Shown: positions 15,476 through 28,843, counted from the stretch's first letter. The stretch is 64,000 nt of DNA from Chloroflexota bacterium (GCA_015478725.1 JADMIG010000001.1:186001-250000); one strand, 5' to 3'. The notes: a model not told the origin generated them from the sequence alone. Numbers and translations are program-made.

Positions 15476-15838
15476 CCGTGATTGCCTGACACGTCGTTGG
15501 CGAGGATGCCCAGCGGATCGAGCCATCTGGGCCAGATTCCGGCAGATGGCCATGAGGCGGGCGTTGGTCTGCACATCGGTGTCAGGTGGCCCTCAGCCGG
15601 GCATCTGGCAGGATCCAGGCGCCGGCCCGGCCCGCTCCACGCTCAGGTCAGCCAGCGCCGCGTGGGGAGTCGATGACCAACGCCCGCCTGGTGGTCAGCT
15701 GTCAGGAACGGCATGCCGCGCCGTACCCCGCTCGATGGAACCGGATCCGGCGAGCGCCCGCGGTGATCGAGCTCGAGCGCCTCGTCCACTTGGCCATGGA
15801 ACTCGGTAGAGTCGAACCCTCTGTGGGAGACTAGGCAC
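15476..15838. other. intergenic region with dispersed repeat, upstream of tRNA-Leu
   Basis: 363 bp with no supportable gene. Most of it is the dispersed element at 15510-15760. The final 80 bp lead into tRNA-Leu and probably hold its promoter. Confidence 0.6.
15510..15760 (+). repeat. dispersed ~250-bp intergenic repeat, copy A
   Basis: This stretch aligns over about 250 bp, by eye roughly three quarters identical, with the reverse complement of 61240-61500. Exact shared words include a 17-mer (15537-15553 versus 61454-61470), a 13-mer (15637-15649 versus 61358-61370) and a 12-mer (15674-15685 versus 61322-61333). Internally GGCGGGCGTTGGTC (15557-15570) and its perfect complement (15674-15687) form an inverted repeat within longer imperfect 28-bp arms. 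It carries no convincing protein. It may be a decayed MITE-like or structured RNA element. Confidence 0.7.
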
Positions 15839-15926
15839 GGGCGAGTGGCGGAATGGCAGACGCGCCGGCCTTAGGAGCCGGTGCCGCGAAAGCGGCGTGT
15901 CGGTTCGACCCCGACCTCGCCTACCA
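15839..15926 (+). tRNA. tRNA-Leu (anticodon UAG)
   Basis: 88 nt including an encoded CCA end. The acceptor arm pairs GGGCGAG (15839-15845) with CTCGCCT (15916-15922), including one terminal G-T pair. The anticodon stem CCGGC/GCCGG encloses the loop CTTAGGA, giving anticodon TAG. The T arm is GTCGG-TTCGACC-CCGAC. A long variable arm (CCGC GAAA GCGG) is characteristic of leucine tRNA. It reads CUA and, by wobble, other CUN codons. Its 3' end is abutted by a degraded recombinase-like frame on the opposite strand, suggesting past use as an integration site. Confidence 0.95.
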
Positions 15927-16177
15927 GATCCTCCGGTATGCGAACCGCAGCCGGCACCCGGTACGTCGGCCGGATGTCGTCGGGCGAGATGACCCGGATC
16001 TCGCCGATCAGGAGGCGCAGGAGCGCCTTGGTCCGGGCTCGCTGTCCCTGCCGCAGGACCTCGCCCAAGGGCCTGACTGAGCGCCCACGACACGACGAGT
16101 CCTTGATCAGCGCGAAACTCGGTCACGCTGCGCTTCAGGGTACGAAGGACAGTCACGTCTGCGCCGGCTCGCCGCAC
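15927..16177 (-). pseudogene. degraded recombinase / Mrr-like nuclease debris
   Basis: Two minus-strand frames look protein-like but join out of frame. The right part (about 16070-16177) reads DVTVLRTLKRSVTEFRADQG and LVVSW, which resembles the C-terminal region of Mrr-type restriction endonucleases. The left part (about 15930-16068) reads RTKALLRLLIGEIRV and PTYRVPAAV, resembling the C-terminal end of large serine recombinases, and runs into the tRNA-Leu 3' end. No full-length gene can be reconstructed. I read it as residue of an inserted element. Family resemblance is from memory of motifs and has not been searched. Confidence 0.4.
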
Positions 16178-16666
16178 TCACGCGACCGCCCGCGACATCG
16201 TGCCGGTGCGCACCACTCGCAGCTGGCCCGCGTGCGAAGGGAGATGTACCTCCGCCTGCGCATCGAGCAGATGGGCGATCGAGACTGGCTCGTCGATGCG
16301 CACGCGGTTGCCGTCCTCGACCCGTGTCGGAAAGCGGCGAACGGCAGTCGCGTCGTCGACCAGCCCGGCCAGCTGCATGACTTCAACCGCAGATCGGCGC
16401 GCTTCGTCAACGAGGCAGACCCAGTCGCCGGCCGCCTGCACGATCGCCTCCAGGTACGAAAGACGTACGGCCGGTCGGTTGTCGTAGGCGGGCTCTCGGC
16501 CGCTCAACGCTTCAGCGAGGTGCGCCGCGATCAGTCGGTTGTTCGCGATGATGTGGGCCACCACCATCTGGGGCGTCCATTCGTCCGAGGGGCGAGCCGC
16601 TGGTCCTGTGCCTTCTGCCGCCGCGAGGAACCCGTCAAAGGCTTGAGCGAGCCCGCGAAGGTCCAT
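16178..16666 (-). CDS. DinB/maleylpyruvate isomerase-like protein
   Basis: 162 residues. The start ATG at 16666 is chosen because GGAG lies 9 nt upstream and the protein-like sequence begins there. It is mostly helical: MDLRGLAQAFDGFLAAAEGT, then EWTPQMVVAHIIANNRLIAAHL with an Asp/His-type metal-ligand pattern (VVAHI), and a late histidine cluster HLPSHAGQL. This is the four-helix DinB/MDMPI N-terminal fold, whose members are metal-dependent thiol-S-transferases or unknown. It is the last gene of the VOC-ArsR-SRPBCC-ABM-DinB operon, 59 bp after the ABM gene. Activity is unassigned. Confidence 0.65.
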   Translation of the reverse strand: MDLRGLAQAFDGFLAAAEGTGPAARPSDEWTPQMVVAHIIANNRLIAAHLAEALSGREPAYDNRPAVRLSYLEAIVQAAGDWVCLVDEARRSAVEVMQLAGLVDDATAVRRFPTRVEDGNRVRIDEPVSIAHLLDAQAEVHLPSHAGQLRVVRTGTMSRAVA

Positions 16667-16725
16667 CTGGATGGCGCTCCTTTCTGCTCGGGTTAGGCGG
16701 TGCTGCCGCCTCGCAGGCGCCTCCC

Positions 16726-17034
16726 TCAACCGGCCTCTGAACCGACCGCCGGAACGCTGAACTCGTCGAGGAAGTACAGCTCGCGCGGGCGGGCCTCCCA
16801 CTGCGCGAAGGGGACATCGACGATCGCCGCGCCCATGGTCGGTCGGGCTGCCGCCAGCGCCTCGCGCGACTCCCAAACCGACATCGCCACGACCCGCGAC
16901 TCATCGCGCCAGGTGCGCACCTCGACCAGCCCAGGCACACGGGCAAGGGTCTCGCCAAGCCCTGCCATTGCTCCGAGAAGGTCGTCGAGGTGTTCAGGCT
17001 TGGGGTGGTGGATCGCGAGGAACAGGTGCTTCAT
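16726..17034 (-). CDS. antibiotic biosynthesis monooxygenase (ABM)-like protein
   Basis: 102 residues from ATG 17034, with GGAGG about 10 nt upstream. The layout KHLFLAIHHPKPEHLDDLL, then VPGLVEVRTWRDESRVVAMSVWES matches a dimeric alpha/beta-barrel (ABM/EthD-like) domain with a late FLDEFSVP strand. Members oxidise small aromatic compounds or only bind them, without a cofactor. It lies 87 bp after the SRPBCC gene and 59 bp before the DinB-like gene in one direction. Substrate is unknown. Confidence 0.65.
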   Translation of the reverse strand: MKHLFLAIHHPKPEHLDDLLGAMAGLGETLARVPGLVEVRTWRDESRVVAMSVWESREALAAARPTMGAAIVDVPFAQWEARPRELYFLDEFSVPAVGSEAG

Positions 17035-17121
17035 CCTGGTTGACCTCCGTTGCACGAACTGCCCGCGGTGGCTTGTTCGGGGTGTCGCGCCAGCCAGCGC
17101 TCTTCTTGGAGGGCGGATCGG

Positions 17122-17598
17122 CTACTTCGAAACCACCTCCGCTTCTGTCGCCGCCACAAAGTCGCTCAGGATCGACGCCCAACCGGCCTCGTACCCGCCA
17201 GCCTGGCGCGTGGCCGCTGCGATCTGTTCCGCGGTCAGCCGCTCCCAGCCACGGTGTTCGAGTTCGACGCGGGTCAGAGCAGGGCCGAGGGGGCGGAAAT
17301 GAACCTCGACCTCGGTGGCCCGGGGGAGAATCTCCCAGCTGATTGCGAAGCGGGCCGGGGGCTCCCAGGCGAGGACGTGGCCCCAGTCGACGGTGCGGCC
17401 ATCTGCCCAGGTCTCGAAGACCCGCCCGCCCAGGCGCGGCTCGAAGGTGACCTGCACGACCTGCTCCTGGCCGAGCGAGAAGGGGCGAGTCGGCCACCAG
17501 CGGCCGATCTCGCGCACGAAGACGCCAAACGTGTGGTCGAGGTCGCTGCGCACGGTCACCGCCTTGCGGATCGGCGCAAGCACGGTCGCCTCAGGCAT
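17122..17598 (-). CDS. SRPBCC (AHSA1-type) domain protein
   Basis: 158 residues from ATG 17598. That start overlaps the end of the ArsR gene by 8 bp, the usual junction in this pair. The START/AHSA1 pattern is clear: IRKAVTVRSDLDHTFGVFV, then EIGRWWPTRPFSL, a GGRVFETWADG hairpin, and a long C-terminal helix with GYEAGWASILSDF. The cavity fold binds hydrophobic ligands. ArsR-SRPBCC pairs are widespread and are usually thought to be autoregulated, with an unknown ligand. Confidence 0.8.
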   Translation of the reverse strand: MPEATVLAPIRKAVTVRSDLDHTFGVFVREIGRWWPTRPFSLGQEQVVQVTFEPRLGGRVFETWADGRTVDWGHVLAWEPPARFAISWEILPRATEVEVHFRPLGPALTRVELEHRGWERLTAEQIAAATRQAGGYEAGWASILSDFVAATEAEVVSK

Positions 17599-17980
17599 GC
17601 TTCGGCTCCGCCCAATCAGCGGCAGAGAGGTCTTCGGCTGACCCCGCCCACCCCGCCTCCGCCTCCACGAGCGCGCGCGCAGCCTCCAGGCTCTCGCCCC
17701 ACAGCTCGTCAAGGTAGGCGCGCAGCTCCCGCAGCCCGTCCGGGCTGGCCCGATAGAGCCGCCGCACCCCCGCCCGTCGCTCGCGCACGAGGCCCGCCGC
17801 TTTCAGTAATTGGAGGTGCTGCGAGACGGCCGAGCGGGTCACCGCGTAGTGGGCGGCGATCTCGCCTGCAGGGAGCTCCCGATCGACGACCAGTTGGAGG
17901 ATCGCCCGGCGGCGTGGCTCGGCGAGCGCCCGGAGCGTCTCGTCGAGCGCCGCCTCCGAGCGCGGCTCCCTCACGCCCAC
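17591..17980 (-). CDS. ArsR-family HTH regulator
   Basis: 129 residues from a GTG that overlaps the end of the VOC gene by 10 bp. The winged helix is canonical: LRALAEPRRRAILQLV, ELPAGEIAAHYAVTRSAVSQHL, then LLKAAGLVRERRAGVRRLYR. The metal-site cysteines of ArsR/SmtB (ELCVCDL) are absent, so it is the non-metal SRPBCC-associated type. It probably represses its own five-gene operon. Confidence 0.85.
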   Translation of the reverse strand: MGVREPRSEAALDETLRALAEPRRRAILQLVVDRELPAGEIAAHYAVTRSAVSQHLQLLKAAGLVRERRAGVRRLYRASPDGLRELRAYLDELWGESLEAARALVEAEAGWAGSAEDLSAADWAEPKHA

Positions 17981-18327
17981 AGCCCGACCGGGTTGCCGTC
18001 CGGGTCGGCGAAGATGGCGATGCGCCCGTAGCCGGAGGGCAGGTCCATCGGGGGGAGGAGCGTGCGGCCGCCGAGCTGCTCGGCGCGGGCCAGATACGCC
18101 GCAAGATCAGCGACCCGCAGGTAGATCTTCACCCCCGAAGGGAACGCCTCGCTGGCCTGCCCGATCCCGCCGCCGACCGCCCCCTCGCCTGCCCCGGTGT
18201 CGACGAGCGCGTAGCCCGTCAGCGAGGGGTCGGCATCGATCTTCCAGCCGAAAAGCTCGCCATAGAAGCGCTGTGCGCGGGCGCTGTCAGGTGAGATCAC
18301 CTCGAAGAACGCGATCGGGGCGCCCAT
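17971..18327 (-). CDS. VOC-family glyoxalase/dioxygenase-like protein
   Basis: 118 residues from ATG 18327, with AAGGAG 7 nt upstream. The sequence has FFEVISPDSARAQRFYGELF at the start and AIFADPDGNPVGLW at the end, the two conserved edges of one VOC module. One metal ligand position is visible as E in the FFEV strand; others are unclear, so catalysis is uncertain. It is the first gene of the operon. A TTGACA at 18425-18430 (minus) could be its -35, but no good -10 pairs with it at 17 nt. Confidence 0.75.
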   Translation of the reverse strand: MGAPIAFFEVISPDSARAQRFYGELFGWKIDADPSLTGYALVDTGAGEGAVGGGIGQASEAFPSGVKIYLRVADLAAYLARAEQLGGRTLLPPMDLPSGYGRIAIFADPDGNPVGLWA

Positions 18328-18445
18328 GGTCGTGCTCCTTCTGCTACGCCAACGCCGTTGGTCACATCGGAATGGCTGGAAGTTAGCATCTGCTTTCGTA
18401 AGTGTCACCTATCAGACGGGCCCTTGTCAAACGGGCCCGGCGGAC

Positions 18446-18832
18446 GTGACGGAGTCGAAGGGCACCGCGTACGTCACGTTCCACGACTACGACAGCGGCA
18501 CCCAGATCCGCGCGGCCCTCGCGACGAATGGCGCGCATCCACGCCCGCTCCGGGTCGAGGATCCGTCCTCGCTCCCGACCGGCCTCTCGCCCTACGAGCG
18601 GGTCTGCTTCGAGGCAGCCGTGGCGGCCGATCCGGCGACGGTCGCTTGGCTCGGCGCGGACGCGAGCACCGCCGCCCGGCTCGAGTTCAGCGGGTTCGCC
18701 GTGGCCCCGTGTCCGAGCGAGCCCGGCTTCTGCGGCTCCGCTGTGGTCATGAGCCCGAACGCCTCCTACCCGTCCCCGCCGCACGTCACGGTGGACCTGC
18801 GGACCGCGCGCGTCATCCGCTACGGCGGCTGA
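18446..18832 (+). pseudogene. possible truncated secreted-protein remnant
   Basis: An open frame of 128 residues from GTG 18446 has normal amino-acid composition, with two cysteine pairs (VCFEA; CPSEPGFC) and a C-terminal VTVDLRTARVIRYGG typical of an extracellular beta protein. It has no signal peptide and no SD, and the upstream sequence is the VOC operon promoter region. I read it as the 3' end of a gene that lost its beginning, perhaps during rearrangement of this accessory region. Family unknown. Confidence 0.4.
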
Positions 18833-18935
18833 GCATCGCTGCTGGAGCGGTCAGTCCGTCGCTTCCACACGCTGACCGACACCTCGCTCCACGGTGCGGT
18901 CCTGAGGGCCGCAGCCGTGGCCCCCTCGGTAGGGA

Positions 18936-20591
18936 TCAGCTCCCGAACAACTCGGCCTGCTCCGCCGCTTGCTTCGTGACGATCCGCTCCGCTTCCTGAT
19001 ACGTCGAGAGGACGAACGGTGGCAGCTGCGGCTTCTTCCCCTCCTCGAGCAACTCGCGGATGCTGAGGATCTGGATCCGCGGGTAGTCGCGCTTCCAGAG
19101 CTCCGAATGAAAGAGGCCGGCGGTGTCGGCCTCGAGGCGCATCTCGCGTGACGGTTCCTCGAGCGTGATGAAGAGCCCGATCGAGCCCTTCTCCCGGTCG
19201 AGCGTGCCCTTGAGATCGCGGAGCATCGCCGAGGTCACGTGGCCGCTCTTCACGCTCACGAGGACCGAGTGGAGCTCGCGGTTGAGGTCGGTGAACGTGA
19301 TGAGTCCGTCGATGCCCCGATCGGCGCCCTTCTTCTCGACCCCACCGAGCGGTTTCGCGTCGACGAGGTTGAGTGCCCACCACTGGAACTGGTAACGACC
19401 ATCCGGCGATGCGGCGAGCTGGCGGGCGCCCTCGACCTCCGTCGGCTGCCCGATCACCTCCACTTCGAGGAGCCCGAAGCTGTCCTTGAGCCGGGCCCGC
19501 ATGACGGCGATCGAGAGGTACGTGATGTCGATGCCGATCCAGCGCCGATCGAGCTTCTGGGCGGCGACGAGCGCCGTGCCGCAGCCGCAGAAGGGGTCGA
19601 GGACGAGGTCGCCTGGGTTCGAGGACGTAGAGACGATTCGCTCCAAGAGCGTGAGCGGCTTCTGGGTACCCCAGCCGAGTCGCTCCTTGGCCTGCGAGTT
19701 CACCGGAGCGATGTCGTCCCACACGTCCTGAATTGGTCGGCCGGCCGACTCGTCGAGGTACCGCTTGAATCGTGGGACCGCCCCCGGGCTTGGTTGAATA
19801 ATCCGGCCCGCGTCGATCAGCTCTTGCATCCGGTCGCGGCTGTAGCGCCAGTACCGCCTGACCCCCATCACCTCGTACTCGGGATTCCCTTTCGCCGCTC
19901 CTCCGGGCCCGGTGATGTTGTCCAACCCGTAGCGCCGTCCGGAGCCGGGTTCCACGTGCGGGTAGTGCGAGGCCGCGTAGTCTGCCCCGAGCGGTTCGTA
20001 GAGCTGATTCCACAGGTACAAGTCGGATTTCGCGTAGACGAGGACAACGTCATGAAGTCGGCCGAAGTGCCGTGAACCTTGCGCTCGGTCGCTGTGGGCG
20101 GTCGAGCGTTTCCAGATGATCTCGTTGACGAAGTTCTTGGGGCCGAAGATCGCGTCGAGGACGAGCTTGAGGTAGTGACTTGCTGTCGGGTCGCAGTGCA
20201 GGTAGAGCGAGCCCGTGGGCTTGAGCACACGGCGGAGTTCCACGAGCCGAACGGCCATCTCGACGAGGTAGGCCATCATCTGGTTCTCGCCCACGCCGGC
20301 CCGGAGGGCGGCGACGATCGTGCTCACCGTGTTTGGGACGCGGCCCTCGTGACGGGCCGTGTTCGTCAAGTACGCGTACGTCGCCTCGGCGGATGGGCCC
20401 CAGTGCCACGTGTCCTCGAAGGCGAGAAGCTGCGCGTCGCTCTTCCGTCCCGACTCGTCCTTGAAGATGACGTTGTAGTCGCGGTTGCTGTTGAACGGCG
20501 GATCGAGATAGACGAGATCGACCGACTCGTCCGGGATGTACCGCCGAAGGATGTCGAGATTGTCCCCGTAGTAGAGAACGTCCGTCTTCAC
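18936..20591 (-). CDS. DNA methyltransferase fused to restriction-like domain
   Basis: 551 residues from a GTG at 20591. Motif order is beta-class: catalytic DPPF (30-33) comes first and the SAM-binding DPFCGCGT (332-339) near the end of the methylase module, with WKRS and TQKP segments between. It should methylate adenine N6 or cytosine N4. From about 400 a second domain begins with WWALNL, then KGADRGIDG (421-429) and VSVKSGHV (445-452). This is the Mrr-like PD-(D/E)XK pattern with D428 and K448, but a Ser sits where relatives have Gln or Glu (SVK instead of QVK). The C-terminal GLFITLEEP and RDYPRIQIL parts match known methylase-nuclease fusions. It is divergent from the HEPN-motif gene. 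Confidence 0.85.
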   Translation of the reverse strand: MKTDVLYYGDNLDILRRYIPDESVDLVYLDPPFNSNRDYNVIFKDESGRKSDAQLLAFEDTWHWGPSAEATYAYLTNTARHEGRVPNTVSTIVAALRAGVGENQMMAYLVEMAVRLVELRRVLKPTGSLYLHCDPTASHYLKLVLDAIFGPKNFVNEIIWKRSTAHSDRAQGSRHFGRLHDVVLVYAKSDLYLWNQLYEPLGADYAASHYPHVEPGSGRRYGLDNITGPGGAAKGNPEYEVMGVRRYWRYSRDRMQELIDAGRIIQPSPGAVPRFKRYLDESAGRPIQDVWDDIAPVNSQAKERLGWGTQKPLTLLERIVSTSSNPGDLVLDPFCGCGTALVAAQKLDRRWIGIDITYLSIAVMRARLKDSFGLLEVEVIGQPTEVEGARQLAASPDGRYQFQWWALNLVDAKPLGGVEKKGADRGIDGLITFTDLNRELHSVLVSVKSGHVTSAMLRDLKGTLDREKGSIGLFITLEEPSREMRLEADTAGLFHSELWKRDYPRIQILSIRELLEEGKKPQLPPFVLSTYQEAERIVTKQAAEQAELFGS

Positions 20592-20975
20592 GGTCGGAGC
20601 GTAGCAGGCACCGGATAGAACACCGCGTCGGTTGTCTCAGACAAAGGGCTACGGCTCATGCATCCGCCTGCGACGGCTCTTCGCCCCTGGCGGCGCGAGA
20701 CGCCTCCCGAGGGCCCACTGGTAGGCGCGACTTCCCTGCTTGAGTTGCGCGGCGGCACGATCGTCATAGAAGCCGAGCTCGCGCAGGAGGAGACCCGTCA
20801 TTTTCGGAGAGGCCTGAACGGCGCGACAGACGACTCGCCGAGGATCCGCTCTCAGTTCCAGACGCCTCAAGGGTCATGCCCTGCTCTTTCGGCGCGCCAG
20901 ACACGCAGGAGCCTGCGCCGGGAGGGCCTCGTTCCGGGACGGTTACAAGGGTGCCTCAGATGTGAGAATGCCTCC
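20592..20975. other. divergent region of the putative defence island
   Basis: 384 bp between the methyltransferase and the HEPN-motif gene. A TACGCT box at 20598-20603 (minus) serves the methyltransferase. A short minus-strand frame from ATG 20801 to 20649 (50 codons, with MTGLLLRELGFYDDRAAAQL) has coding-like composition but no recognised family or SD; it may be a fragment. I see no clear promoter for the plus-strand gene. Confidence 0.4.
20598..20603 (-). promoter_or_regulatory. -10 box of leaderless promoter (methyltransferase)
   Basis: TACGCT preceded by TGC on the minus strand, 6 nt before the GTG at 20591. Confidence 0.5.
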
Positions 20976-22229
20976 GTGAAGGACGACGAGGAGCATGGCC
21001 ACGCGAACGATCCGACCGAGGACGAGTCGGCTGGTAGGGCACCCTTGACCAGGGAGGAGATCCTCCGAACGAGACTCACGGTGTACGCGTTTCCGGAGTT
21101 CGACCTCTCGGTCTCAGCGTGGTCGCACGCACAGTCTGTGGCGATGATGGGCGACGCCGTTGCCGCGGGCATCGACGATCGCGAGTTCGCTGTGCGAACG
21201 CTCGGCCGCCAGATCGTGGCACCCAGGGGTACTGGGGCCAATGAACTCCGGAGCTGGGCCGACGACCGCCTGCAAGCGCTGCTGCGTGCCTTCCTTGACC
21301 GAGCCACCACGCTGTTCTCGATCGATGCCGAGGTAGCGTCGTTCGAAACCCTCCGGGCGGCCGTCCGACGCCGACGGGAGGAAGAGGAAGCCGCATATGC
21401 ACCGCTGCTCGCGCAGATCAAGTCGATGGCGACGCTGCCTCCGGGGATGCTCGCGGCGCTCGAACAGACCCAACAATCCCTACCGCTCGTCACCGAGACC
21501 ATCGCGGCAGCCGCGGCTCAGGCAGAGCGAGCGGTGGCTCAGTTCCAAGTTACGCTCGCCCCAATCCTCGACAGGATCACGGTTGACTACGCGGCGGCGT
21601 TGCGGATCCTGGCGCCGGACACACAGGCCGAAGAGCAGGTGCGATACCTATTGACCCGCGGCTGGTACCCGTCGCCCGAGATGCCATCCTACGATCCTGA
21701 GATTGCCCGACTGGCAGCCGCGGGCAACATCGTCGAGGTCGACAGGCGCATGGCGAACTTCGCCGAACGCCGGCTCGGCCACGTGGCAATACGCGTCCGG
21801 TCGAGCTTCCCGGCTCGCGCCCCATTCGTTGAGGACGCGGTCTGGGCTCATCGGAATCGCCGGTACACATTGACCGCTCCCGCGCTCCTCGCCCAGGCGG
21901 ATGGAGCTTTCTACGACATCATCGGGGAGCAACTCTATCGAAAGGGAGGCACAGCTGCGCGTGAGGCGTTGAATCACCTGTTCGTGCTGCGGGGCACCGA
22001 GCAATGGTGGGCCCGGACCGTTCTGCTTCCCATCGATGAAGGTTCGAGCCTCGTCGTCAACACAGCCCAGCGCACTACTCATCGGCAAGGCGATCCCGAC
22101 TACGGCCCATTGAACCGGCACGGAGTGCTGCACGGTGTCGATCTGGACTATCCGACCCGCGAGAACTCGCTCCGTGCGTTCACGCTTCTCGATTACCTAT
22201 GCTGGCTCTCGCAGATCGTGCAGCCATAG
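20976..22229 (+). CDS. hypothetical protein with C-terminal HEPN-type RxxxxH motif
   Basis: 417 residues from GTG 20976; the frame is open further upstream but that part is not protein-like. Residues 1-25 are acidic. A long helical region with an EEEEAAY acidic patch and Ala/Gln-rich heptads (about 120-215) is likely coiled coil. The C-terminus contains LNRHGVLHG, in which R381 and H386 form an RxxxxH with a polar residue after the Arg, as in HEPN ribonucleases. ENSLRAFTLLDYL follows, as in many phage-defence and abortive-infection relatives I know. Its position beside a restriction-modification fusion supports a defence role. Nuclease activity is inferred. Confidence 0.6.
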   Translation: MKDDEEHGHANDPTEDESAGRAPLTREEILRTRLTVYAFPEFDLSVSAWSHAQSVAMMGDAVAAGIDDREFAVRTLGRQIVAPRGTGANELRSWADDRLQALLRAFLDRATTLFSIDAEVASFETLRAAVRRRREEEEAAYAPLLAQIKSMATLPPGMLAALEQTQQSLPLVTETIAAAAAQAERAVAQFQVTLAPILDRITVDYAAALRILAPDTQAEEQVRYLLTRGWYPSPEMPSYDPEIARLAAAGNIVEVDRRMANFAERRLGHVAIRVRSSFPARAPFVEDAVWAHRNRRYTLTAPALLAQADGAFYDIIGEQLYRKGGTAAREALNHLFVLRGTEQWWARTVLLPIDEGSSLVVNTAQRTTHRQGDPDYGPLNRHGVLHGVDLDYPTRENSLRAFTLLDYLCWLSQIVQP

Positions 22230-22573
22230 CCACGACACCCGATGGGGCGGGATGGCGCGTCCGGAGTTTGTTGATGCCGCACTCGCCGCGATCGAGCGTG
22301 GCGGGCGGGGGCCATGCTTGCAGGAGTCAAAGGCGACTGTTGCATGTGCGCCGGGGCGGGAGTCTTGAGGCCGAGGCAAACATAGGACCTCCGTCCGGGG
22401 CAGTTCGTCGCGCCGTGTCGATGAGCACGAGAACGAGGCCACGGGCGGCGCTCCTCTTTCGGGACGGCTCGAGGTGCAGGAACCTCCCGGCCACAGTCAG
22501 GTCGTCGGACCTCGCACGCAACGTCTCCGACCGACCATGTAGACCAGAGGCCAGCGGCGAGAGGTCGCGGATA
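22230..22573. other. 344-bp gap within the putative defence island
   Basis: The frame of the downstream gene stays open through this gap but is Arg/Ser-rich and unlike a protein. A 38-codon frame from ATG 22252 (MARPEFVDAALAAIERGG) could be a degraded start of another gene. I see no RNA structure that I recognise. A separate promoter for the downstream gene is likely, but no consensus is visible. Confidence 0.35.
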
Positions 22574-24163
22574 ATGGTGGACGCGATGCGCACCAAGCGC
22601 CCTCTTACCTCACCTGGACCGAGCCAGTTCGCCGATTACGTGGAGTCACGCCCGCCGCAGCTTGGGTGTTGGCGAGATGGCGCACTCGGCCTGTACCCGA
22701 TGCTCGCTTGGCTCAACACGCACCCGGTCGTGGAGCAGCGAAAACGCATCGCGACCGAGGGCCCCCTCTTCGCAGCGTTCGCGACGACCCGCGCCCACCA
22801 CAATCAAGTCGGCGTCGCCGTGGGGTGGACCACCGAGCACATGACAGGATCGCGGCGCGCACGCGCCTCCACCGAACAGGAGAGGGTCGCACTCTTCGAT
22901 CTCGCGGGGCGTCATTGGTTGATCCGGAATCTCCTGGCCGAGGTCCGTCAGGGCGTCCGCCGGTATGAGGCGGACGGGACACGGATCGTTCTGAGGTACG
23001 ACGGGGACAATCGTCTTGACGCTCTCGACCGCCTCCTCGGTCTGGTCGACGACCTTGATTCCATCGCCGACCCACCCACCTTTGCGGACGGGCGCCTCCC
23101 CCGGTGGCTGGCAGGAGGAGGTCGGGACGTTCCATGGCGCAAGGTCCCTTTGTGGGCCAAGGAGCAGTACCGAACATTCGCGGCGCGCCTCATCGATGGC
23201 TACCCCAGCTATCTGCCCGGAGATCTCGATGTAGGCGGGTTCACCATGGCTGAGGCGACCCGGGTCTGGGTCGAGCTGATGGCTCGCGGTGCCCAAATGC
23301 ACGCTTGCACGCTGCATGGTTCTGTGAACGCGTCTGTCGTCGTGCCGATGCTGGTCGCCGGCGACTTGATCGACGAACTCGCCGAGGCTTCCGCCGTCGA
23401 TGTCCAGCGAGTCGGCGCGCTGGCGAACCTGCTCACCCTCGACCTCCGTCGCCGTCCCGATCCCTGTCTGACCCCGCTTGTTCCGATCGCCGGGGATCGG
23501 CTGGTGCCGATGAGCAGCCTGATCATTCCGTCGTCGCCGATCCGCAATCTGACGGCTCTCCTGCAGCGTGATCCAGCCTCGTTTGGCAAGGCCGGGAATT
23601 TGCTCGGCCTGCTCGGCGCACGAACGACGGCCGCCACGTTGGGCCGACTCTCGGGCGCGCGCGTGGAGACTGGCGTGAAGGTGTTACGCGACGGCGGCAG
23701 CCAGGCGGGCGATCTCGATGTGGTCGCCTACGACCCATCGGAAGGCACGATGGTGATCTTCGAGGTCATGTGGCAGATCGACCCTGACGGATCAGCAGAG
23801 GTCGCTCGATCGGAGGAGCGGGCCCACGAGAAGCGAGCGCAGGTCGCTCGCCTTCGATCGGAAATGGATGGCGGCCAGGCCACTGCGCGGTGGCCCGCTA
23901 GCTGGCCGGACTGCAGCAGCGTGCGGGCACGCTGGTTCATCGTCACGCCGAACGTCCTGCCGGTGCGAATCGTCGAACCGGATGGGATCACCATCCGGTC
24001 ACACCAGATGCTGGCTCGAATGCTTCGTGCGGGTGCCTCCGTGTCGGATCTCATCAGGCTGCTCGATGACCCGCCTCATCCGCCATCCGAGCTCTTGCAG
24101 ACGCAATGGAAGCGGGTGCGCTACGGGGACTACCGAGTGGAGTTCGATTCGATCGTGGCTTGA
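22574..24163 (+). CDS. unknown protein with C-terminal PD-(D/E)XK-like domain
   Basis: 529 residues from ATG 22574 (GAGAGG about 10 nt upstream; ATG 22586 is possible). The first 375 residues match nothing I recognise. The last 150 begin with GDLDVVAYDP and MVIFEVMWQIDP, followed by EVARSEERAHEKRAQ. This spacing equals the D-x(14)-ExKW nuclease core seen in defence-island proteins I know as IELKW...ERSEE. Here the catalytic Lys is Met (D382, E397, M399), so the domain may be inactive or the Lys may be supplied elsewhere. It follows the HEPN-motif gene in the same direction, and codon use is less GC-extreme than its neighbours. Confidence 0.55.
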   Translation: MVDAMRTKRPLTSPGPSQFADYVESRPPQLGCWRDGALGLYPMLAWLNTHPVVEQRKRIATEGPLFAAFATTRAHHNQVGVAVGWTTEHMTGSRRARASTEQERVALFDLAGRHWLIRNLLAEVRQGVRRYEADGTRIVLRYDGDNRLDALDRLLGLVDDLDSIADPPTFADGRLPRWLAGGGRDVPWRKVPLWAKEQYRTFAARLIDGYPSYLPGDLDVGGFTMAEATRVWVELMARGAQMHACTLHGSVNASVVVPMLVAGDLIDELAEASAVDVQRVGALANLLTLDLRRRPDPCLTPLVPIAGDRLVPMSSLIIPSSPIRNLTALLQRDPASFGKAGNLLGLLGARTTAATLGRLSGARVETGVKVLRDGGSQAGDLDVVAYDPSEGTMVIFEVMWQIDPDGSAEVARSEERAHEKRAQVARLRSEMDGGQATARWPASWPDCSSVRARWFIVTPNVLPVRIVEPDGITIRSHQMLARMLRAGASVSDLIRLLDDPPHPPSELLQTQWKRVRYGDYRVEFDSIVA

Positions 24164-24457
24164 AAGGACTCCATGCCGGGCGCGGCGCGCGCACGGTCAG
24201 TGCCGACGTGGCATACGGAGCTGGGGCTCGGTCGGGCCCCGCGGAGCGTCGCGCTTGTTACCTCGACCTCAAGTCCATCCGCCCCGACCAGATCAGATGC
24301 GCTGACCTGGCGAGCCACTGCTGGTGATGGCCGGCTTGATCCCGCCGCGCGGTTCGTGCACCGACGACCATGCACAGCGTCCACCCGGGCCGAACGCCCG
24401 GCGACAGCGCGGCCCGGCGTCCGGCTCAGCGGGCCGGGCTCGGGCGTCCGCCCATCA

Positions 24458-24480
24458 GGCCGGCCCGGACCGGGCCGGCC
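24458..24480. promoter_or_regulatory. perfect 11-bp-arm palindrome upstream of tig
   Basis: GGCCGGCCCGG and CCGGGCCGGCC flank a single central A. The palindrome ends 2 bp before the -10 box TATACT and covers the position where a -35 would lie, so it is placed like an operator. A hairpin terminator for upstream genes is less likely because no T-tract follows. The GC-only sequence could partly be chance in this genome. Confidence 0.45.
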
Positions 24481-24482
24481 CG

Positions 24483-24488
24483 TATACT
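24483..24488 (+). promoter_or_regulatory. -10 box of tig-clpP-clpX promoter
   Basis: TATACT lies 8 nt before the tig ATG at 24497, so the mRNA would be leaderless or nearly so. This is the strongest -10 match among the start-proximal boxes. Confidence 0.55.
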
Positions 24489-24496
24489 TCGGCCCG

Positions 24497-25909
24497 ATGA
24501 ACGTCACCTCGATCCCCGCTCCGAAGAGTTCCATCGTCCTCACCGTCGAGCTCCCGCCCGAGCGACTCGATCGCGCCGTGGACGAGGCCGTCCGCCGCCT
24601 GTCCCGCCGGACGAAGGTCGCCGGGTTCCGGCCCGGCAAGGCACCCCGCGCGGTCCTCGAGCGGGTCCTCGGGCCCGAGGCGGTCCACGACGAAGCGGTC
24701 GAGCACCTCGTCTCCGACGCGTACCGGGCGGCGATCCTCGAGCAGGATCTCGTGCCACTGACGAGACCCGAGGTCGAGGTGGTGCGGGCCATCGCGGGCG
24801 AGCCGGTGGTGTTCACGGCCACCGTCCAGGTGCGCCCGGAGGTGACCCTCGGCGACTACCGGAGCTTCACGTTCCGGCCGGAGATCGAGGCGATCGACGA
24901 CGCGAAGGTCGCCACGGTCCTCGACGAGCTGCGCGACCAGAACGCGGCCCTGACCCCCTCCACGGAACCCGCGAAGAAGGGCGACTACGCGATCATCGCC
25001 TATCGCGGTACCCGGGACGGCGAGCCGTTCGAGGGCGGCAGCACGGAGCGGATGCCGCTCATCATCGGGAACGAGCGGCTCATCCCAGGCTTCGAGGACC
25101 ACCTCGTGGGCATCCGGGCGGGGGGATCGACCGCGTTCGACATCGACTTCCCGACGGACTACGCGGAGCCGGGTCTCGCTGGCCGGACCGCCCACTTCGA
25201 GGTTGACCTGCGGGAGCTGCGGACCAAGGTCCTGCCCGATCTCGACGACGAGTTCGCCCGATCCATGGGGGAGTATCCGGACCTCGCCGCGTTCCGGGTG
25301 GACGTTCGCCATCGCCTCGAGCGGAACGCGCTCGACCGGGCTCGCCATGGATTCAGCGACCGGATCATCGACTACGCCGTCGCGAACAGCACTCTCGAGC
25401 TCCCGGACGTCCTCGTGGACCAGGAGATCGAGGTGATGCACGACGAGTTCCGCTCCTCGCTCGTCCGGCAGGGGATCACCGAGGAGGCGTATCTCAAGGT
25501 CGTGAAGCAGACGGAGGCGGACCTCCATGCGGAATTTCGGCCACGGGCCGAGGGTCGGGTGAAGACGCTGCTCGTCCTGTCGAAGATCGCCGAGACGGAA
25601 GGCGTGACGGTGGACGAGGCGACCATCGAGACGGAGATCGCGGCCGCCCGGGTGCGGTATCGCGGGGAGCCGAAGCTCCTCGCGTACTTCGAGTCGGACC
25701 GGGGTCGCGCGTTCCTCCGTAGCACGCTCCGCCGGAGCCAGACGGTGGAGCGACTCGTCGACGAGTGGCTCGTCGCCCATCCCGACCACCCGCCGATCCC
25801 CCACGCCGAGAGCGACGAACCGGCCGCAATCAGCCTCGAATCCGCGGCCGCGTCGGCGGCGATCGGAGCGACCGACCCGGACGCGGGCCCGGCCGCCGAG
25901 CCTCGCTGA
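24497..25909 (+). CDS. tig: trigger factor
   Basis: 470 residues from ATG 24497. The ribosome-binding signature GFRPGKAP lies near residues 42-49, the FKBP-like peptidyl-prolyl isomerase domain spans about 150-240 ([34 protein letters not shown]), and a helical chaperone domain follows to about 435. It docks at the ribosome exit tunnel and shields nascent chains. The last 30 residues are an acidic, Ala-rich low-complexity tail. It heads the tig-clpP-clpX block, a common bacterial arrangement, with 52 bp to clpP. Confidence 0.95.
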
Positions 25910-25961
25910 CCCCGGCCCTCATCCACTCGACCTGCCAGAAGCTCAGGACTGGAGACCGCCG

Positions 25962-26666
25962 ATGCTCGTGCCGATGGTCATCGAATCGTCGAGTCGCGGG
26001 GAGCGCGCCTACGACATCTACTCGCGGCTCCTCCGGGAGCGGATCATCTTCCTCGGCGATACCGTCGAGGATCACGTGGCGAACCTCGTCATCGCCCAGC
26101 TCCTCTTCCTCGACTCCGAGGATCCGGAGAAGGACATCTACCTCTACATCAACTCGCCGGGTGGCATCGTCACGGCGGGTCTGGCGATCTACGACACGAT
26201 GCAGTACGTCCGCTCACCCGTCAGCACGATCTGTATCGGCATGGCGGCGAGCATGGCGTCCGTCCTCCTCGCCGCCGGGGCGCCGGGCAAGCGCTTCTCG
26301 CTCCCGAACAGCCGGATCATGATCCACCAGGGGTCCGGCGGATTCCGCGGCAACACGCCGGACGTGTTCATCCAGGTGAAGGAGCTCGAGCAGCTCAACG
26401 AGCGGCTCCACGAGATCCTCGCCCACCACACCGGACAGACGGTCGAGAAGATCCGCAAGGACACGGATCGTGACTACTTCATGGCTCCCGAGCAGGCCCG
26501 GGAGTATGGCATCATCGACGCGGTGTATTCGACGGCCGGTGACCCGCTGAGTCTTCGTCGGAGCGGTGCCGGAGCCGCCACGGAGACGGACGCGATGGTG
26601 GGTCCCGCCGAAGCGCCGGCTGCGGCGACGGCGAAGAAGCAGGCAGGGCCGGGAACGGGACGATGA
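25962..26666 (+). CDS. clpP: ATP-dependent Clp protease proteolytic subunit
   Basis: 234 residues. The catalytic triad is Ser97 (GMAASMAS), His122 (RIMIHQ) and Asp171 (DRDYFM), all intact. The first residues [21 protein letters not shown] match the processed N-terminus of ClpP. It forms the tetradecameric peptidase that works with ClpX, encoded 13 bp downstream. The 40-residue Ala-rich extension after residue 190 is longer than usual. The gene ends with TGA just before the clpX GTG. Confidence 0.95.
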
Positions 26667-26679
26667 GAGGGACGCGCGA

Positions 26680-27990
26680 GTGACCTCGACGAGCGGCGCG
26701 AAGGGGCCCAAGGTCCCGTACCGCTGCAGCTTCTGCGGCAAGAGCCAGGAACAGGTCCGCAAGCTCATCGCGGGCCAGGGCGTCTACATCTGCGACGAGT
26801 GCATCAACCTCTGCCAGGAGATCATCGAGGAGGAGATGCTCGAGGCGCCGAAGGCGAAGCCGTCGAGCACCAAGCTCCCGAACCCACGCCAGATCACCTT
26901 TTCCCTCGATCAGTACGTGATCAGCCAGGAGCGCGCGAAGAAGGTCCTCTCGGTCGCCGTCTACAACCACTACAAGCGGATCAACGCCGGCCATGCCGTC
27001 GACGAGGTGGAGCTCCAGAAGTCGAACGTGCTCCTCGTCGGGCCCACCGGCTCGGGCAAGACGCTCCTTGCCCAGACCCTCGCCCGCGTCCTCGACGTGC
27101 CGTTCTGCATCGCCGACGCGACGTCGCTCACGGAGGCGGGGTACGTCGGCGAGGACGTCGAGAACATCCTCCTCAGGCTCATCCAGGCGGCGGACTTCGA
27201 CGTGGCGCGGGCCCAGCGGGGGATCATCTACATCGACGAGATCGACAAGATCGCCAGGAAGGCGGATAACCCCTCGATCACACGCGACGTCTCCGGCGAG
27301 GGCGTCCAGCAGGCGCTCCTCAAGATCCTCGAGGGAACCGTCGCCAACGTCCCGCCCCAGGGCGGCCGGAAGCATCCGCACCAGGACTTCATCCAGATCG
27401 ACACGACGAACGTCCTGTTCATCTGCGGCGGCGCCTTCGACGGTCTCGAGAAGATCGTCGAGGAACGGGTGGGCAAGCGCGGGATCGGCTTCGGAACCGA
27501 GACGGCGGTCTCGAAGGCGGACCGGTCGAAGATCCTCGAGCGACTCATGCCGGAGGACCTCCTCAAGTTCGGGCTCATCCCGGAGTTCATCGGCCGCCTG
27601 CCGGTGATCGTCACCCTCGCGACGCTCACGGCGGAGGATCTCGTCCGCGTGCTCACCGAGCCGAAGAACGCGGTCACCCGCCAGTTCCAGCGGTTCCTCC
27701 AGCTCGACAAGGTGGAGCTCGTGTTCACCCCGGGCGCGCTCGTCGCCGCCGCCGATGTCGCCCTCGACCGAAAGACCGGGGCACGCGCCCTCCGCTCGAT
27801 CGTCGAGGAATCGCTGCTCGAGGTGATGTTCGACATCCCGGAGCGGACGGACATCCGCAAGTGCATCATCACCGAGGAGACGATCCGCCAGGGCCGCCCG
27901 CCGCTCCTCCTCACGAAGTCCGACGTGGATCAGGGCGTCGACGAGACGAACTACGAAGACTGGCTCGCCGAACGGGGCGAGACCGCCTAG
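26680..27990 (+). CDS. clpX: ATP-dependent Clp protease ATPase subunit ClpX
   Basis: 436 residues from GTG 26680; the frame extends further upstream only as Arg-rich sequence overlapping clpP. The zinc finger CSFC...CDEC is at the N-terminus, followed by Walker [18 protein letters not shown], Walker [10 protein letters not shown], the GGRKHPHQ pore loop (RKH) and the sensor-2 [11 protein letters not shown]. It unfolds substrates and feeds them to ClpP. It is the last gene of tig-clpP-clpX and is followed by a hairpin at 28045-28068. Confidence 0.95.
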
Positions 27991-28044
27991 ACGAGGTTCC
28001 AGGGGTCCCGAGTTTGCCGGGGCCGCGGGGTGCGGGGCCGGGCG

Positions 28045-28068
28045 CTCGACCGCCCCGGCGCGGTCGAG
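28045..28068 (+). terminator. hairpin downstream of clpX
   Basis: A perfect 8-bp stem CTCGACCG/CGGTCGAG with an 8-nt GC-rich loop, 55 bp after the clpX stop. No T-tract follows, so it is a weak terminator candidate. Confidence 0.4.
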
Positions 28069-28181
28069 GCCGCCAGATGGGCTGACTCCCGGCTGGCGGG
28101 ACCTATCCGGATGTGATGCGGCCGGCGGTGCCCTCGGGGCGGCCATCGCTCGTCGAGTTCGCATTCCAGCTGCGCGATCTC

Positions 28182-28271
28182 CCATCTGGTGGGCGTTGGC
28201 CGAAGTCAGACGACCGGGCCCCCAGCCCGGCAGGCGACCGATCCGGATAACGCCCACCGGGCGGTAGATGG
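28182..28271. repeat. inverted element related to the dispersed repeat (copy C)
   Basis: Arms GGTGGGCGTT (28188-28197) and AACGCCCACC (28249-28258) pair perfectly, and the outer words CCATCT (28182-28187) and AGATGG (28266-28271) also pair after a 7-nt insertion. The core GGTGGGCGTTGG also occurs at the inverted-repeat arm of copy B, and AGATGGCC recurs in copies A and B. The middle is unrelated. It looks like a shorter member of the same family. Confidence 0.45.
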
Positions 28272-28303
28272 CCGAAGTCCGGCAGGTCCGGGCCGCGCGG
28301 CGG

Positions 28304-28744
28304 TCAACCGCCCGACGGTTCCCAGCCGGCCACCGCGAGCTCGAAGCCCTCGAATTCGAACGCGGGGCTCACCGTGCAGCCGACGAGCGTCCACGATCCG
28401 AGCGAGCGCGCCGCCTGCCACGAGCCGGCCGGCACCGTCGCCTGCGGGCGCTCACCTGCCGCGAGCTCGACCCCGAGGATCGTCCGTGCGGCAGCGCGGC
28501 CGTCGGCGGCGATGCCGAGCTCGAGCGGGGATCCGGCGTAGAAGTGCCACGTCTCGTCGGCGTCGACGCGGTGCCAGGCCGATCGCTCGCCTTGGCGCAG
28601 GAGGAAGTAGATCGCCGAGCTCGTCGCGCGACCGCCGTCGACCGCCGTCGTTCGCCACGTCTCCGCGTACCAGCCACCCTCCGGATGCGGGCGCAGCGAG
28701 AGGCGCGCGATGATGTCGTCCGGGTCGGTGTCTTCGTGGGTCAT
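28304..28744 (-). CDS. cupin superfamily protein (DUF985)
   Basis: 146 residues from ATG 28744. The DUF985 signature LRPHPEGGWYAETWR is near the start, followed by SSAIYFLLRQGERSAWHRV and a cupin barrel with ETWHFYAG and ELAAGERPQATVPAGSWQAA. Some relatives are annotated as cupin_5 or uncharacterised; metal-binding His residues are partly present. Function is unknown. A TACGCT box lies 8 nt before the start. The frame also extends to 28849, but that part is encoded by the tandem repeat and is rejected. Confidence 0.8.
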   Translation of the reverse strand: MTHEDTDPDDIIARLSLRPHPEGGWYAETWRTTAVDGGRATSSAIYFLLRQGERSAWHRVDADETWHFYAGSPLELGIAADGRAAARTILGVELAAGERPQATVPAGSWQAARSLGSWTLVGCTVSPAFEFEGFELAVAGWEPSGG

Positions 28745-28752
28745 CGCCGTCC

Positions 28753-28758
28753 AGCGTA
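28753..28758 (-). promoter_or_regulatory. -10 box of leaderless promoter (cupin gene)
   Basis: TACGCT on the minus strand, preceded by GC, 8 nt before the ATG at 28744. Confidence 0.5.
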
Positions 28759-28780
28759 GCGCGTGGCGCGTGGCGACCCG

Positions 28781-28843
28781 CCCGGAGCCGGGCTCATGGC
28801 GGGGACCCGGAGCCGGGCTCATGGCGGGGACCCGGAGCCGGGC
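28781..28843. repeat. 25-bp tandem repeat, 2.5 copies
   Basis: The unit starting CCCGGAGCCGGGCTCATGG is repeated exactly at 28781-28805 and 28806-28830, with a third partial copy to 28843. Each unit holds the palindrome CCCGGAGCCGGG-like core. It lies between two divergent genes. Confidence 0.85.

Follow-up and report, generated by a model that had tools for sequence, protein, structure and literature searches.

A variable tRNA-Leu/tig segment of a Chloroflexota chromosome probably gathers three independent defence-type modules

The window analyzed here is a 64,000-nucleotide stretch of DNA from a Chloroflexota bacterium (GCA_015478725.1 JADMIG010000001.1:186001-250000), whose genome bin comprises 3.4 Mb in 151 contigs. 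At positions 18,936 to 24,163, an open reading frame (ORF) check confirmed the presence of three long genes, whose products are termed P0001, P0002 and P0003. An earlier note, made from the sequence alone, had described them as a methyltransferase fused to an Mrr-like domain, a protein with a C-terminal HEPN-type RxxxxH motif and a PD-(D/E)XK-like protein without the usual lysine, and all three descriptions were borne out. The upstream ends of the P0002 and P0003 ORFs are probably over-extended, and the P0003 start at ~22586 is backed by alignments with the relatives at loci L019 and L134. The three genes and their domains are located as follows.

18936..20591, minus strand: P0001, fused DNA methyltransferase and Mrr-type nuclease, 551 amino acids (Pfam, PADLOC)
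19524..20522, minus strand: N6_N4_Mtase domain of P0001, residues 24-356, with DPPF at 30 and DPFCGCGT at 332 in beta-class order
19047..19337, minus strand: Mrr/NA-iREase1-like domain of P0001, residues 419-515, with D428-G and S446-V-K448
~20976..22229, plus strand: P0002, HEPN-motif protein assigned to PHROG 28904; the start is uncertain, with an ORF open from 20658
21798..22226, plus strand: HEPN-like domain of P0002, residues 275-417 (predicted model and PDB comparison)
22116..22133, plus strand: RHGVLH (Rx4H) motif of P0002, residues 381-386 (alignment)
22586..24163, plus strand: P0003, PD-(D/E)XK-like protein, 525 amino acids; start set by homology, longer ORF from 22199
23573..24070, plus strand: PD-(D/E)XK-like core of P0003, residues 330-495 (predicted structure and PDB comparison)
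23768..23770, plus strand: Met395 of P0003, replacing the motif III lysine (alignment)

The earlier note had suggested an undescribed defence combination and had set the conservation of the two plus-strand genes as neighbours beforehand as a test of it. Every fetched locus, from genome samples as well as phage and plasmid sets, was scanned with profiles of all three families. The only loci with both a P0002-like and a P0003-like gene were the home locus and a duplicate contig of the same bin, P0001-like and P0002-like genes shared a locus in one other genome only (G157), and P0001-like genes usually occurred without either partner. This is an outcome that the note had named as a refutation: with P0002 and P0003 sharing no fetched locus elsewhere, an obligate pair and a two- or three-gene system were rejected. 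Of the proposed combination, the defence island is supported by what its parts show in family membership, motifs, fold and repeated defence neighbours, and its action as a system is not. We consider it probable that the locus is a chromosomal defence island and not a single system, in which the slot between tRNA-Leu and tig has gathered three independently mobile defence-type modules. Two of the three modules belong to uncharacterized families.

A single system in which P0001 restricts and P0002 and P0003 act as linked effectors would fit the adjacency of the genes and the strand and codon bias common to P0002 and P0003. It is largely refuted by the lack of joint occurrence at any other fetched locus and by the fact that relatives of each gene keep other partners, and we regard it as very improbable. 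The two genes are moreover separated by ~356 bp from the end of P0002 to the start of P0003 and are thus neither overlapping nor translationally coupled, and each of them, the HEPN protein and the PD-(D/E)XK protein, is probably a stand-alone module of its own.

The N-terminal domain of P0001 matched the Pfam model N6_N4_Mtase at 6.6e-40 (137.8 bits against a cut-off of 26.7) and, together with its DPPF and DPFCGCGT motifs, identifies a type II amino-methyltransferase. The C-terminus (~419-515) matched NA-iREase1 (2e-8), which bears the name of an inactive type, and Mrr_cat (4e-5). Within the nuclease site D428 and K448 are conserved and the middle residue is a serine, replaced by glutamine in many relatives. 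Relatives were detected at 57 loci in viral contigs, most of them across the full length, and in 83 plasmid records, 8 of which covered most of the length; judged by these matches, fusions of the P0001 type are common in phages. Motif III reads Q-x-K in 27 of the 42 scored viral relatives, in contrast to S-V-K in P0001, and SxK in 15, with the lysine kept wherever it was scored. The Mrr-type domain may be active. P0001 unites an amino-methyltransferase with an Mrr-type domain in a single polypeptide and in this resembles single-chain type II/IIG restriction-modification (R-M) enzymes and Mrr-type endonucleases. In classical type IIG enzymes the nuclease precedes the methyltransferase, whereas in P0001 the methyltransferase is N-terminal and the nuclease C-terminal. 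The domains themselves are evident, and P0001 would most likely act as a single-chain R-M enzyme with a putative recognition site: host DNA would be marked by the beta-class methyltransferase, and incoming DNA without the mark would be cut by the Mrr-type domain at the C-terminus. A paralogue of P0001 with 64% identity is encoded at a contig edge of the same genome (L065:532-2193, G000:C12) and has no HEPN or PD-(D/E)XK neighbour.

P0002 and P0003 had no match in Pfam or NCBIfam and no PADLOC-DB 2.0.0 family at an E-value of 1, so that the PADLOC check suggested in the earlier note returned a family, type II MTase, for P0001 alone. Searches of the PDB with sequence profiles of both proteins gave nothing useful, and Foldseek alone found no significant match for either predicted model. 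P0002 ends in the motif LNRHGVLHG (R381-H-G-V-L-H386), of which R381, H382, H386 and G387 are invariant in two alignments of 11 and 21 homologues, so the motif did not arise by chance. The conserved block reads L-[NS]-R-H-x-x-x-H-G in relatives from Chloroflexota and plasmids. HEPN RNases are characterized by an arginine, a polar residue next to it and a later histidine (PMC3710099), and P0002 likewise has a polar residue after the arginine of its Rx4H motif, which falls within the Rx4-6H pattern of the superfamily. All 21 aligned proteins, including P0002, matched PHROG 28904 (function unknown), from which P0002 differs in its longer N-terminus and chromosomal location. No Pfam HEPN model, HEPN_AbiV included, matched any of these 21 family members at an E-value of 0.1; HEPN_AbiV does match neighbours of relatives.

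Structure prediction, the other check suggested, yielded for P0002 a helical C-terminal part with a predicted local distance difference test (pLDDT) score of ~85-95 across residues 240-320. The top 14 PDB matches to residues ~275-417 contain the HEPN entries 1ufb (Z 5.3), 4nqf (5.1), 1wol (4.6) and AbiV 9bj7 (4.4) among unrelated helical bundles that score alike; among the proteins matched are ST0689, AbiV and the HEPN-domain protein TT1696. Given these low Z values and the noise typical of helical bundles, the motif weighs more than the fold. P0002 shares with HEPN abortive-infection proteins such as AbiV the Rx4H motif and a helical C-terminal domain but differs from AbiV in lacking a HEPN_AbiV match and in its fully intact motif, as AbiV typically lacks the motif histidine (PMC3710099). 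The motif, the weak fold match and the prophage and defence contexts described below make a single-gene abortive-infection effector the most likely reading. In such a protein the long helical N-terminal part would sense or sequester, and the C-terminal HEPN ribonuclease would cleave host or phage RNA by means of Rx4H upon an infection trigger.

Scanning viral contigs with the single P0002 protein returned nothing, and only the profile built from alignment A2 retrieved relatives, at 24 viral loci. In nine contigs the relative lies exactly between the tail completion gene S and the baseplate gene V of P2-like prophages, as assigned via PHROGs, and a tenth prophage contig with a relative ends before V. 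At one of these loci (L088) a HEPN_AbiV gene adjoins the P0002 relative in the same slot. The published P2 hotspot is located between gpA and gpQ (PMC9122126) and thus differs from the S-V slot. Relatives of P0002 were also detected in 15 of 400 Chloroflexota genomes, where their close neighbours encode a methyltransferase-HNH fusion (G157), Mrr (G211), HNH (G257), DUF4268 (G133) and HsdM (G185); the other Chloroflexota loci have no such R-M or nuclease neighbours.

These contexts bear on the possibility that P0001 and P0002 form a functional pair, in which the HEPN ribonuclease guards the R-M enzyme and is set off by failed restriction or by inhibition of the methylase, comparable to PrrC/EcoprrI, with P0003 as a bystander. 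The two genes are divergent neighbours in the window, the P0002-like gene of G157 lies 174 bp downstream of a methyltransferase-HNH fusion that is 48% identical to P0001 across the methyltransferase part, other P0002-like genes adjoin Mrr or HNH genes, and a tight association between HEPN domains and R-M systems has been described (PMC3710099). However, the other fetched P0001-like loci, 57 of them viral, contain no P0002-like gene, nor does the paralogue locus of the same genome, and most prophage slots hold P0002-like genes without a methyltransferase. Such a pair is therefore unlikely.

For P0003, the predicted core consists of helix 330-352, strands 359-368, 373-383 and 388-394, helix 404-428 and strand 447-453. 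Nearly all of its best PDB matches are PD-(D/E)XK proteins, led by FokI (Z 7.6), BspD6I2 (7.4), AF1548 (7.0) and McrC (6.8), all with Z <8. The active-site motif reads G-D376-L-D378...E393-V-M395-W, that is, E-V-M instead of E-V-K. The acidic residues of motifs II and III are present (D376, D378 and E393; the two aspartates are invariant in alignment A6) and the motif III lysine is not. Across the family, motif III is E/Q-x-K in 8 of 11 members and E-x-M in the remaining three, namely the window protein and its relatives at L019 (63% identical) and L134 (51%). As E-x-M is common to three members, the alignment indicates that Met395 is inherited and not a recent defect, and in this EXM clade nature provides an example of a catalytic lysine whose absence is inherited.

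In DUF506, DUF790 and DUF1626 the lysine is known to have migrated to the following (motif IV) helix, and some superfamily families lack the motif III lysine (PMC1913061). Proteins of the EXM clade carry K416-R417 in that helix, and many EXK members are basic there as well. With six sequences the lysine seemed to covary cleanly with the helix, a pattern that weakened once five more were added. Compared with DUF506, DUF790, DUF1626 and YhgA, P0003 is alike in its core fold, kept acidic residues, missing motif III lysine and basic next helix; it differs in having no model match by sequence, another N-terminal region and E-x-M specifically.

P0003 would most likely represent a stand-alone PD-(D/E)XK defence protein that binds or cuts DNA, with cleavage either carried by K416/R417 of the following helix or lost. 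A catalytically dead protein with only a DNA-binding or regulatory role, which would be compatible with the island, has a real though less than even chance of being correct. It is suggested by the lysine-to-methionine exchange common to the three members and by the existence of inactive REase domains (Pfam NA-iREase1). The retention of D376, D378 and E393 speaks against it, as do the known cases of lysine migration together with K416-R417, yet a basic residue also occupies that helix in most EXK members.

Relatives of P0003 were found in 8 of 400 genomes of the phylum, in two further class-sample genomes with full-length matches and in one Streptomyces; none was found in phages or plasmids. 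One stretch (L134:263-6555, G506) encodes an AbiV-like protein, an unknown 390-amino-acid protein with a weak winged-helix match, the P0003 relative, AbiEii and AbiEi. Further relatives occur with AbiEi and AbiEii (L204, G291), with a C5 methyltransferase and an SNF2 helicase (L011/L021, G089) and with an Mrr_cat gene (L010, G242). At L019:4161-8203 (GL140) a DUF5677 gene and one for an MmeI-like type IIG enzyme come after the relative. These genes look like a further uncatalogued defence cluster, and no relevant report of DUF5677 as a described defence family was found in the literature searched.

The three genes lie in a segment bounded by tRNA-Leu and tig, with clpP also on the right side. 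The tRNA-Leu gene, which the earlier note had taken for debris, is intact.

15839..15926, plus strand: tRNA-Leu, intact gene (ARAGORN), left edge of the variable slot
15927..24460, no strand: variable inserted segment from tRNA-Leu to tig, right edge approximate; empty sites in G305, G243, G155, G312 and G219
16726..18408, minus strand: non-defence cargo, comprising an ABM monooxygenase, AHSA1, an ArsR regulator and a glyoxalase-like protein (Pfam)
24494..25909, plus strand: tig, right-hand neighbour of the slot

The segment measures 8.5 kb here, and the distance from tRNA-Leu to tig is ~40-80 bp in the five same-family relatives with empty sites. In G049 the two genes are separated by ~3.5 kb of different DNA, and the same-genus genome G304 has different DNA upstream of tig. 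Since relatives have empty or differing sites, the 8.5-kb segment is inserted or highly variable. Its GC content is ~63-66% compared with ~70-74% around it. The less GC-extreme codons claimed earlier apply to P0002 and P0003 (both with a third-position GC content of 0.76, against 0.91 in tig and 0.87 in clpP) and not to P0001 (0.87). A mobile element with attachment (att) repeats was considered and dropped, as the sequence near tig gave no repeat of the tRNA end above 10 bp and no integrase was seen in the slot. Contig C45 of the same bin (G000) is identical to window positions 15735-28843, and this 13.1-kb duplicate includes tig and clpP and diverges only at its ends. It was rejected as a sign of mobility and probably reflects assembly or strain redundancy and not transposition.

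The ArsR, AHSA1 and glyoxalase genes in the same slot would also fit a non-defence explanation, in which the three genes are housekeeping genes or neutral cargo. Relatives of the genes are repeatedly found with defence neighbours and in a prophage cargo position, which makes this explanation highly doubtful. Several observations nevertheless weigh against a defence island. The structure matches of P0002 and P0003 are weak, all with Z <8, where helical bundles need higher values, and the N-terminal part of P0003 is poorly modelled (pLDDT <50). The slot is without a detected integrase or att repeat. Four of the 11 P0003 family members (the ELKSQ subgroup, L205-L208, possibly a non-defence branch) and the Streptomyces member are found in ordinary neighbourhoods, and the P0002 loci L128, L131 and L132 have no recognized defence neighbour. 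The defence neighbours of P0002 and P0003 relatives are plain tallies of the loci fetched, and any enrichment among them would be putative.

Independent contexts tie to defence two families for which neither Pfam nor PADLOC has a model. A bolder proposal, which we hold to be speculative and rather unlikely in full, would make PHROG 28904 with P0002 an undescribed family of HEPN ribonucleases that each bring about abortive infection as a single gene, occur as S-V cargo of P2-like prophages as well as on chromosomes and plasmids, and are tied in some lineages as a fail-safe to methyltransferase-nuclease fusions; the EXM clade of P0003 would at the same time be a defence nuclease whose catalytic lysine has been relocated. 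Of the two families, the one with the HEPN motif is the more useful lead: it recurs in prophages, its RNase motif is intact, and it occupies a specific cargo slot between structural genes. This most valuable lead is located outside the window.

S-V slot loci: L088:5330-8129, L086, L089, L091, L093, L095, L097, L099, L101; L209-L213

Among annotated Peduoviridae, the S-V slot is empty in D14A, contains a hypothetical gene in Dobby and Mana, a DNA methyltransferase in KL3 and an Old-type nuclease (Old exonuclease) in KS5. Across P2-like Pseudomonas and Burkholderia phages, the S-V gap acts as a cargo slot that is either empty or holds an unknown gene, a HEPN-motif gene, a HEPN-motif gene with AbiV, a methyltransferase or an Old nuclease.

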